Assembly: GCA_017412085.1 (NCBI GenBank)
Contig: JAFPYS010000015.1
Span: 1-39,410, forward strand
DNA length: 39,410 nt
Reading direction: 5' to 3'
From: Alphaproteobacteria bacterium
Lineage (GTDB): Bacteria; Pseudomonadota; Alphaproteobacteria; CAAHEQ01; UBA3637
Of the stretch, positions 1 to 2,256 are shown one piece after another (within the stretch, counting starts at the first letter, position 1; each line of letters begins with the position of its first letter). The position numbers and the translations under genes are program-made. Under the pieces are notes generated by a model. The model was not told where the DNA came from and ran no database searches. It saw nothing but the letters and a program-made list of their open reading frames with translations.

Positions 1-74
1 ACGCATTTTAAAGGAACGTTTTTGTATGTTGGGAAAGTAAATTGAGATTTGTTAACAAACGAAAGGAACATAAA

Positions 75-479
75 ATGAGAAATACAGAATCCGGCCGTTC
101 AATGGTCGAAATGTTGGGCGTGTTAGCCATTATCGGTGTGTTATCCGTTGGTGGTATCGCTGGTTACACAATGGCTATGAAAAATTATAAGGCAAATGAA
201 ATTATTAATAGTTTTGCCTTGGCTGCTATGGCAATAAATGAAGCGGGAGCCGGGGCTAATCTAGGCCCAGAAGATCTTGCAGCCAAGGGGATTGCGATGC
301 CTCCTGGTTGTACTGCCGGCTTTTCTGGTGGTGAGTTCAGTGGTATAATAAATGTGGGATGCGATTCAACTGCCGATGTTGTGCAAATAGTACGTGACAA
401 AGTTGGAACGGATTCTACAAAGAATGTTTATGCAGAGCAGAATAGTGGCACAGCAGCGGTTATTCATTATAAATTTTAG
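75..479 (+). CDS. Type IV prepilin-like / pseudopilin protein
   Basis: A 134-residue prepilin-like protein, probably a pilus or pseudopilus subunit that sits in the inner membrane before assembly. The short polar leader MRNTESG is followed by RSMVEMLGVLAIIGVLSV, a hydrophobic helix with Glu at +5 if prepilin peptidase cuts after Gly7, as in type IV pilins. The +1 residue would be Arg instead of the usual Phe or Met. Two cysteines near residues 83 and 99 could form a C-terminal disulfide loop. I chose the ATG at 75 because AAAGGA lies just upstream; an in-frame TTG at 42 has no ribosome site. A terminator follows at 509-538, so it may be transcribed apart from the ATPase gene downstream. The pilin class is clear from the N-terminus; the system it belongs to is not. 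Confidence 0.8.
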   Translation: MRNTESGRSMVEMLGVLAIIGVLSVGGIAGYTMAMKNYKANEIINSFALAAMAINEAGAGANLGPEDLAAKGIAMPPGCTAGFSGGEFSGIINVGCDSTADVVQIVRDKVGTDSTKNVYAEQNSGTAAVIHYKF

Positions 480-508
480 TGTAAGGCTATAGATCATTAA
501 AAGCGCAT

Positions 509-538
509 AAAAACGGGAGCCGATTGGTTCCTGTTTTT
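509..538 (+). terminator. Rho-independent terminator after the prepilin gene
   Basis: A 13-bp stem (AAAAACGGGAGCC pairing with GGTTCCTGTTTTT, including G-U pairs) closes a GATT loop and ends in a T-run. It lies 30 bases after the pilin stop codon. The A-tract before the stem means it could also work in the opposite direction. Confidence 0.8.
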
Positions 539-604
539 ATGTTACAAAAAACGCTTGCAAAAAGATAAAAAAAAGGCAATGATAAAAGAAAAGAGGAGGT
601 TTTT

Positions 605-2065
605 ATGTTTGAACGTTTTTTAAAGGGAACAAAATCGGCAACACCGCCCGCAACACCTAAAGCGGCTACCCCTGGTACTGACGTACAACGTCCTGTTCCA
701 GCCGCAAAGCCGGCGGAAGCTCCTGAGCCTCCTGTTTCTGCGGCGCAAGCTCCAAGCGAACCAACACAAACTCCTGTCCCAGAGAAAGTTCAAGAACCAT
801 TAAAACCCGTTCGTGAAGAACCAATGGCGGATTCAATTGATCCTGCTGCCCGTCCACCGATGGCACACAATCCAATGCAAGGAAACAGTATGCCATCCGC
901 GGTTCCTGAGCTGCCAGATGAAGAAGAGGCGCCAGAGGACGCTTTGCCGGTGGATGATGTTCCAGATAATACACCGCCGCCAGACCCCCCTTCATTTTTG
1001 CAAGAAAAAGATACTCCCAATGAGGATTCTGATGATGCAAAGGAAGAAAAGAAAGCGCCGGTTATACAGCCAACAATGGGGGCAACAAAAGAGCCGGAAA
1101 CCGTTCGGGGTGAGTCATTGCATACCGTTGATTTTGCTGATATTTGGTATACCCCAGAAGGAATCGCTTATGTTCGTGATAAAAGCACAAGATTTGCCTT
1201 GACCCCTATTGAAACAGACGATTTGGAAGATTTTCATAAGGCGTTGGAACAAGGTTTTACAGGAATGTCCAGCTATGCGATTAAATTTGCCGGAGATTCT
1301 TATCGTGTGGAACGTGTGAACACCATAGATGGTTTGCAATATAACTGTCGAAAAATGCCAACAACAACACCGGAAATTGAAACATTGGGATTTGAGCCAC
1401 AAATCGTGAAGCATTTGACAAGTTTGAGTCGTTCTTCCGGATTATTGTTGTTTGCTGGTCCAACGGGCCAAGGTAAAACAACAACAGTTTCCTCGCTGAT
1501 GAAACGTTATTTGGATACAGATGGTGGCTTTTTGTATACGATTGAAGATCCACCAGAAATGCCGTTGTCCGGTATATATCATTCCAAAAATGGCGGATTA
1601 GGTTTGTGTAAGCAGGTGCCCGTTGAAAATGATCAGTGGGGTGCGGGATTGCGTTCTGCGTTACGTTCTAAACCGCGGTATATTTTAGTGGGTGAAATTC
1701 GAACACCCGAAACGGCCAGCCAATGTTTGGTGGCAGCCACTTCTGGTCACTTGGTGCTATCAACAATTCACGCCAATGGTGTGGAGGATGCTTTAAATTC
1801 CATCATTAAATATGCTGCATCCACAGGGTTGGATAATGGTTTGGTGGCCGATCTTTTGGCGCGTGGTATTTTGGGCGTGATACACCAAAGGTTAGAGGGT
1901 ACAAACAAGTTGAAATTGGTATATCAATCGGCATTTGCTAATCCCAACGCGCAGGCGGCGGATCAGATGCGTATGGCTATTCGAGATACGAACATCAACT
2001 TAGCAACGTTTATGGAACAACAAAAGACGCGGCTGGAACGCGGCTTACCAATGTTTAGGGAGTAA
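605..2065 (+). CDS. PilT/GspE-family secretion or pilus ATPase
   Basis: A 486-residue secretion ATPase of the type II/IV family (PF00437), which hydrolyses ATP at the inner membrane to drive pilus extension, retraction or substrate export. Residues 15-165 or so are rich in Pro, Ala, Glu and Asp and look disordered. The conserved part begins near residue 175. Walker A is GPTGQGKT at 285-292, an Asp-box-like stretch IEDPPEMP lies near 317, a Walker B region ILVGEIR near 360 and the His box STIHANG near 387. The core resembles PilT and DotB more than GspE, since no four-cysteine zinc motif is seen. AGAGGAGG precedes the ATG at 605. The next small gene starts six bases after the stop. No inner-membrane platform or secretin gene is visible in the window, so its partners must lie elsewhere. 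The long acidic, proline-rich N-terminus is unusual for PilT. Confidence 0.8.
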   Translation: MFERFLKGTKSATPPATPKAATPGTDVQRPVPAAKPAEAPEPPVSAAQAPSEPTQTPVPEKVQEPLKPVREEPMADSIDPAARPPMAHNPMQGNSMPSAVPELPDEEEAPEDALPVDDVPDNTPPPDPPSFLQEKDTPNEDSDDAKEEKKAPVIQPTMGATKEPETVRGESLHTVDFADIWYTPEGIAYVRDKSTRFALTPIETDDLEDFHKALEQGFTGMSSYAIKFAGDSYRVERVNTIDGLQYNCRKMPTTTPEIETLGFEPQIVKHLTSLSRSSGLLLFAGPTGQGKTTTVSSLMKRYLDTDGGFLYTIEDPPEMPLSGIYHSKNGGLGLCKQVPVENDQWGAGLRSALRSKPRYILVGEIRTPETASQCLVAATSGHLVLSTIHANGVEDALNSIIKYAASTGLDNGLVADLLARGILGVIHQRLEGTNKLKLVYQSAFANPNAQAADQMRMAIRDTNINLATFMEQQKTRLERGLPMFRE

Positions 2066-2070
2066 AGAAT

Positions 2071-2256
2071 ATGATGGGCGCTCTTGGAGATTTTTTTTAT
2101 TATATTACAAGTCCGATAATTATGTTTATCAAACAAGTTGCGGACAGCCTTTTATCGGCATCAAATTATGTGCTTAATTTTTTGATGTCCTTTTTGGAAG
2201 GCATTATGAACATTTTACAGGCTGTCTTGGACGCTATCACTGGTATCTTGAGCTGA
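2071..2256 (+). CDS. Small hydrophobic protein downstream of secretion ATPase
   Basis: I do not recognise this 61-residue protein. It is almost entirely hydrophobic or amphipathic, with a few acidic residues (DFF, ADS, EGI, LDA) spaced along what would be two helices, at about residues 5-25 and 30-60. It has no cleavable signal and no cysteines. The start lies six bases after the ATPase stop, with GGGAG at the end of that gene as a likely ribosome site, so the two are probably co-translated. ATG also occurs at 2074. Its last 42 bases overlap, tail to tail, the end of the DUF5665 gene on the other strand. A membrane partner of the ATPase is a guess from position only. The tight spacing and good ribosome site are the evidence that it is real. 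Confidence 0.55.
   Translation: MMGALGDFFYYITSPIIMFIKQVADSLLSASNYVLNFLMSFLEGIMNILQAVLDAITGILS

Follow-up and report, generated by a model that had tools for sequence, protein, structure and literature searches.

A probable second PilT-like motor of an R64/bundlin-type IVb pilus, encoded apart from the main pilus locus and beside one of many dispersed prepilins in an alphaproteobacterial genome

The window analyzed here is the entire contig C11 (39,410 bases), which leaves no sequence to extend into on its left side, of a source assembly of 967 kb in 21 contigs that is 86% complete, and it begins with genes for a prepilin-like protein, an ATPase and a small hydrophobic protein (Table 1). We conclude that the ATPase is almost certainly a member of the R64/bundlin-type type IVb pilus (T4bP) systems, where it represents the second, PilT-like motor. 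There are good reasons to regard it as a motor whose gene directly follows the pilin gene in relatives and here lies off the main T4bP locus on contig C18, with a likely role in the retraction of filaments made of dispersed prepilins. This picture is drawn from computation, namely homology, the gene order of relatives, dispersal, predicted disorder and the restricted occurrence of the small gene. The system is ordinary by family, and unusual in its layout, in the tail of its motor and in the number of its pilins. A puzzling trio is hereby assigned to a known machine, and the accessory motor gains a recognizable signature. The three genes and their common strand, first proposed in an initial annotation made from the sequence, were confirmed by an ORF check.

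Table 1. Positions of the features discussed in the text; those without a locus prefix refer to the window.
Feature	Position	Strand	Remarks
Prepilin	75-479 (ATG 75 to stop 479)	+	134 aa; N-terminus of the type IVb kind; ORF check and GRSMVEMLGVLAIIGVLS motif
PilT-like ATPase	605-2065	+	486 aa; PF00437 match
Small hydrophobic protein	2071-2256	+	61 aa, two-helix; begins 6 bases past ATPase stop
Prepilin 5' cassette	1-129	+	shared with contig C1 right end; part of inverted repeat beside dispersed repeat
Terminator-like hairpin (A-tract/GC stem/T-tract)	506-541	+	between prepilin and ATPase
ATPase N-terminal extension	605-1132	+	disordered, Pro-rich, 176 aa; only part of orthologues have one
ATPase PilT-type core	1133-2065	+	Walker A, Asp box, Walker B, His box intact; TIEDPPEMPL
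Dispersed-repeat sites	L209:1-107, L210:1-159, L211:1-21, L212 ~2517-2655, L184 spacer		

In Pfam profile searches the ATPase matches PF00437 (E 6.6e-31), a family present at three places in the whole genome: the window, contig C18 and contig C8. Its best NCBIfam model is that of the PilT family, TIGR01420, with 118.5 bits and thus well below the cut-off of 319.1, and it scores 72.4 bits against the DotB model TIGR02524 (cut-off 463.3) and 76.1 bits against the TraJ model TIGR02525 (cut-off 368.3). Assignment to the GspE/PilB/PilQ assembly ATPases found no support, the protein being under the cut-offs of these models and outside the PilQ rows of our tree. In this tree of 61 rows, which is unrooted (the root serves for drawing only) and has some long branches, a split with 98/99 support sets 26 rows of the window type and 16 of T4bP second ATPases apart from all others; the other side of the split holds PilQ, R64 TraJ, YggR of E. 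coli K-12, a VirB11-like row and the remaining ATPases. Most window-type and second-ATPase rows share a TIEDPPEMPL-type region at the Asp box; in YggR, TraJ and the single third-ATPase row displayed, this position reads EDP[VI]E. The Walker A and Walker B motifs are preserved in both groups, and the window clade also keeps an intact Asp box and His box. A structure comparison covering residues 168-483 of the AlphaFold2 model placed PilT first (Z 27.4), followed by PilT4, DotB (26.6) and PilU (26.6), a tie within 1 Z. The secretion ATPase with a PilT/DotB-like core recognized in the initial annotation is well supported by these structural matches and by the PF00437 hit. Core fold and domain order are also those of type IVa PilT and PilU; however, we rejected a type IVa PilT, given the score below the TIGR01420 cut-off and the split from YggR in the tree, and the long N-terminal tail is a further difference.

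Operon forms of this motor are found in relatives. In genome G213, a single run (L229) reads TcpQ-PilN-PilO-PilP-PilQ-PilR-(206 aa)-prepilin-ATPase, with an ATPase of the window type that lacks the extension (446 bits to the L125 copy, 449 bits in the class search). The prepilin of this locus carries the N-terminal motif of the window prepilin, matches the Pfam families PilS and Bundlin, and has weak matches to the solved structures of bundlin (3.5e-5), TCP pilin (1.1e-4) and PilS (0.003). The window pilin, unlike this L229 pilin with the same motif, has no match to PilS PF08805 or Bundlin PF05307 at E 0.01, and is one of many dispersed copies. Locus L125, on a contig shared with L160, reads PilO-(609 aa)-PilQ-PilR-prepilin-ATPase, its prepilin being open in two frames. 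Among nine outside loci (L132-L140), seven have the homologue as the gene right after a pilS-like one within R64-type T4bP clusters, from Rhodospirillaceae, Anaerolineae, an alphaproteobacterium, Methylococcales, Methylophilus, Ventosimonas and Comamonas; in L132 and L139 (Hydrogenophaga and one gammaproteobacterium) no pilS is labelled among the genes of the locus. Pilin followed by second ATPase is also the annotated order in three plasmid records, including P. putida pND6-2 and Methylovorus pMsip01, and an excerpt of PMC3984277 on R64-variant operons gives the order S2-T2-V2 for PAPI-1 and mentions the PilT2 ATPase of Burkholderia Tfp7.

The window ATPase therefore resembles the second ATPase of R64-type T4bP (such as PilT2 of Burkholderia Tfp7) in its side of the tree split, in the TIEDPPE-type signature of most rows, and in the place after the pilin in operon forms (pND6-2, pMsip01, L229). 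It differs from it in that the window family has its gene outside the T4bP locus and a disordered extension, and in a His box that reads GH in the window clade and GR in 9 of the 16 T4bP second-ATPase rows. The N-terminal extension, which the initial annotation could place in no known type IV pilus or type II secretion operon, is a real oddity. We infer that the window ATPase and its kind of prepilin derive from the last two genes of an operon like those of L229 and L125, which traces the origin of the motor from an operon position to a stand-alone gene. The prepilin-ATPase order of the window repeats that of the operon, and both retention and re-acquisition may account for it.

The T4bP parts found in the genome are TcpQ, secretin, PilO, PilQ, PilR, prepilin peptidase and prepilin. 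The run on C18 (L004) encodes TcpQ, the secretin, PAP_PilO, a PilQ-type T2SSE ATPase and the T2SSF platform protein (PilR), together with a 308-aa protein without family match in the PilP position. PilQ has 645 aa and also a Pro-rich start of about 110-120 residues (10.5% Pro over the first 200 residues). The only Peptidase_A24 match of the whole-genome search, the prepilin peptidase, lies on C15, in agreement with the remark in the initial annotation that the window has none. The ATPase on C11 is consequently not in the T4bP locus on C18; co-location is usual and not defining, and an excerpt of PMC6668835 has the T4bP model set as multi-locus. The initial annotation was ready to give up a set of its own if ATPase and pilin turned out to belong to an ordinary, complete pilus or T2SS locus, and this is essentially what we found, the one departure being that the T4bP genes are spread over several loci.

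AlphaFold2 predicts hardly any order in the ATPase before residue ~165, with pLDDT values of 43-64 for residue blocks 1-160 and of 86-97 for blocks from 171 onward; the disordered, Pro-rich N-terminus of about 160 residues described at the outset is therefore real. Ahead of the core, 35 of 52 orthologues have 40-265 residues (median 122) and the other 17 have 8-27, as counted from an alignment to window residue 177 from which 5 fragments were dropped, and from the first start codon, so that lengths may be slightly long, or short at contig starts. In those 35 the extension has 15% Pro versus 5% in the core, and 23% hydrophobic residues versus 34%. Between the window and its sister L076, dN/dS is ~0.19 in the extension and 0.022 in the core, rough values at a dS of ~1.5 or more, and the extension thus appears to be under weaker constraint than the core. 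In G115, ATPase and PilO lie on different contigs and the ATPase has no extension; because this copy is off the PilO contig yet tail-less, relocation and tail gain are separate events. We also considered a conserved N-terminal peptide and rejected it: the pattern, drawn up after the fact and descriptive only, is found in 26 of the 35 extensions and in 43 of 293 background ORFs and is missing from the N-terminus of the window ATPase, and a few of its 26 extension matches sit on other Met residues. A disordered tail of 40-265 residues on a pilus motor raises the question of how such motors are recruited.

In the mechanism that we propose, PilQ on C18 would drive filament assembly, and the window ATPase would drive disassembly or retraction of filaments built from dispersed prepilins, the window prepilin among them. 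Retraction as the job of the ATPase is suggested by its likeness to PilT (with which DotB ties structurally), and by this analogy we consider it moderately probable. The 176-residue disordered tail might tether the motor to the membrane or to the base of the pilus, an idea to which we give even odds. It is also possible, if rather doubtful, that the ATPase is an auxiliary or regulatory T4bP motor, for example for minor-pilin loading or filament release, and that PilQ carries out both extension and retraction. Five of the nine outside loci have a third ATPase besides PilQ and the second ATPase, so that a division of roles is conceivable; in the stretch of R64 examined, PilQ is the sole annotated ATPase among the pil genes, TraJ being in the tra region; and an excerpt of PMC6668835 states that the Tad pilus can retract without PilT and considers an ancestral ATPase that served both functions. 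An auxiliary role fits less well with PilT being first among the structural matches, even if DotB ties, and with the intact catalytic boxes of the window clade.

Two other readings would take the ATPase out of the T4bP altogether. Contig C8 carries VirB8-, CagX/VirB9-, TrbI/VirB10- and VirB11-like genes that represent a separate secretion system, and DotB, which powers Dot/Icm, ranks with the best structural matches (Z 26.6); still, it is extremely unlikely that the window ATPase plays the same part for the C8 system, since that locus has its own VirB11-like ATPase, the tree splits the window ATPase from both TraJ and VirB11, its scores fall far below the DotB (72 bits versus 463) and TraJ cut-offs, and its orthologues sit in pilus loci such as L229, a gene order that largely refutes the VirB reading. 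We accordingly rejected an identity as a DotB/TraJ or VirB-system ATPase. That the three genes form a pilus or secretion set of their own, of an uncharacterised kind, as initially proposed, is very unlikely as well, even though they lie side by side on the same strand with the small gene starting 6 bases past the ATPase stop. The 3 kb that precede the ATPase contain a prepilin in one of 21 neighbourhoods, that of the window itself, and the small gene occurs in 3 of 43 family genomes, counts that lead us to reject the trio as a conserved operon and show that the three genes do not stay together in relatives. The 21 neighbourhoods comprise the window and 20 from the 39 further family genomes that have the ATPase, and the view upstream is limited (108 bases at L049, 604 at the window); in the closest relative, G032, no prepilin was found within 3 kb upstream of the ATPase. 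Moreover, prepilin and ATPase of these kinds occur together within the T4bP locus L229, and in the window they are separated by a 16-bp hairpin (folding energy -22.4 kcal/mol for 506-552), because of which we read the prepilin as a transcription unit of its own; a consensus scan does not include this hairpin among its predictions. The trio is better explained by the main T4bP locus lying elsewhere, with a second motor and a prepilin of T4bP kind in the window.

Uncultured assemblies, many of them from rumen or gut samples, account for 56 (L076-L131) of the 68 related loci; their titles read Alphaproteobacteria, Rhodospirillales or, in one case, proteobacterium, and these relatives presumably belong to the order RF32 of GTDB. 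A strong ATPase orthologue is present in 40 of the 43 family genomes, in a few as contig-end pieces, and in G011, G024 and G036 (91-94% complete) PilQ is present and no ATPase orthologue was found. Among 289 genomes of the class, 96 match an ATPase alignment at 1e-25; 17 of these are window-type best matches (>420 bits), 10 are second-ATPase-like (231-289 bits), and the other 69, at <=144 bits, were counted as other family members, the cuts having been chosen after gaps in the scores were seen. PilO (PF06864) is present in 23 of the 289 genomes, 18 having both ATPase and PilO, nine the ATPase only and five PilO only (Fisher 7e-18, a value that ignores shared ancestry). Of the nine with the ATPase only, four (G089, G213, G308, G096) do carry a T4bP locus, whose PilO-like gene escaped PF06864, G141 and G291 each have a long PF00437 ATPase, and G014, G111 and G194 (98, 78 and 87% complete) gave no PilQ-type match. 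The clearest exception is G014, which has the ATPase and 26 prepilin matches and gave neither a PilQ nor a PilO match. The coupling of ATPase and T4bP is hence imperfect across genomes. A literature search by titles and starts of abstracts, with terms that also matched unrelated words, retrieved nothing on T4bP in these bacteria, and in the extracts of PMC8992543, on rumen assemblies of RF32 among other orders, the words pili and secretion system are absent.

The 61-aa gene is restricted to G000, G032 and G034, where it starts 4-6 bases past the ATPase stop, and its wider conservation, on which the proposed set depended, is thus essentially lacking among the 43 family genomes. Its profile also matches 16 additional genomes, though weakly (best E 0.004 to 0.7) and in several cases within long frames or with stops; we treated these matches as chance and rejected a wider family. 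The window and G032 copies are 50% identical, with dN 0.47 and dS 2.06, the latter near saturation; the dN/dS of ~0.23 and a length difference of one codon indicate that the ORF is coding. The hydrophobic character noticed initially was borne out as well (GRAVY 1.09, best 19-residue window 1.51). Structure prediction from the three sequences gives helices at residues 2-27 and 33-60 (pLDDT 75), and the modelled protein may be either a membrane hairpin or an amphipathic surface binder. We regard it as a small protein, specific to the lineage, that sits in the membrane or on its surface; it is probably translated together with the motor and may interact with it. On the opposite strand, a DUF5665 protein gene (2215-2598) is convergent and overlapping with the 61-aa gene, and a DUF5665 relative is the first or second gene downstream of the ATPase in all eight other loci of the genus that were examined.

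The window prepilin scores 14.4 bits against Pfam N_methyl, below the cut-off of 21.2, and was called from its GRSMVEMLGVLAIIGVLS motif; this motif and the matches of its N-terminus to 18 other places in the genome, one of them a fragment at a contig end and perhaps the same gene, uphold the initial description as prepilin-like. In total, the genome has about 18 prepilin-like genes. Ten of these copies (L056-L065) are near-identical over their first 45 residues and differ in their C-termini, and their 5' parts are mostly alike at the DNA level too, L064 being different; eight other copies show a looser likeness. In the 43 family genomes, which measure 0.7-1.8 Mb, prepilin matches, counted as such and not as checked genes, range from 6 to at least 97 (G020) per genome, with a median of 26. 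A pool of this size suggests a heavy dependence of these bacteria on surface filaments. Some prepilin-like proteins are large (L239:256-4968, 1570 aa; L240:812-4267, 1151 aa; L241:160-2901, 913 aa), and another of 417 aa (L242:404-1657) has an F5/8 type C (galactose-binding-like) domain; prepilins with such large C-terminal parts may serve as alternative or tip pilins. The large prepilin families of these small genomes often form tandem or inverted arrays (L171, L173, L179).

The 5' part of the window prepilin belongs to a repeated cassette. Window bases 7-129 are identical to the right end of contig C1, where two divergent prepilins (L184:5374-5734) share 123-nt arms that form a 98% inverted repeat on either side of a 115-nt spacer; inspection by eye shows a -35/-10-like pair directed to one of the two sides. 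Window bases 1-6 match the opposite side of this spacer, meaning that the other spacer end is joined to the same arm. A dispersed repeat of ~140 nt with terminal inverted repeats (CGTYCCTTTAAA / TTTAAAGGRACG) occurs at several contig starts and beside housekeeping-type genes. Spacer-like copies start C16, near a groEL-like gene, and C19, near a putative lipoprotein gene, and C9 retains 21 bases of it near a polynucleotide-phosphorylase-like gene, all these neighbours being named by sight. Because spacer-like copies recur beside unrelated genes at contig starts, we read the spacer as a short dispersed repeat that breaks the assembly. The arrangement at the window start is what promoter inversion would give; as judged from the sequence, the dispersed repeat would be the simpler reading. 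It is plausible that C1 adjoins C11, and in G037 orthologues of several C1 genes do precede the ATPase, but it is the opposite end of the block that comes nearest to it.

Inverted repeats across prepilin genes were also found in L171 and L179, and, among five further regions from three loci, L175 has inverted pairs of up to 58 nt at 90%; the same search in the prepilin regions L172 and L169 gave none. A broader scenario would have one T4bP machine fed by dispersed prepilins, giant ones of 913-1570 residues included, with a near-fixed assembly half and a varied exposed half, their expression switched at the inverted 5' cassettes by recombination or promoter inversion, and mixed filaments handled by the tethered off-operon motor. 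We consider this joint scenario improbable; if its switching part were true, the window contig would start inside such a switch.

Two further observations concern VirB-like genes elsewhere in the genome. Adjoining the T4bP locus on C18, on the opposite strand, is a gene for a 121-aa TrbC/VirB2-like protein just below the Pfam cut-off (L004:3183-3548). The VirB10-like protein of the VirB8/9/10/11-like locus (L005:9342-19290) is 2158 aa long and contains many beta-flower repeats (PF21785).
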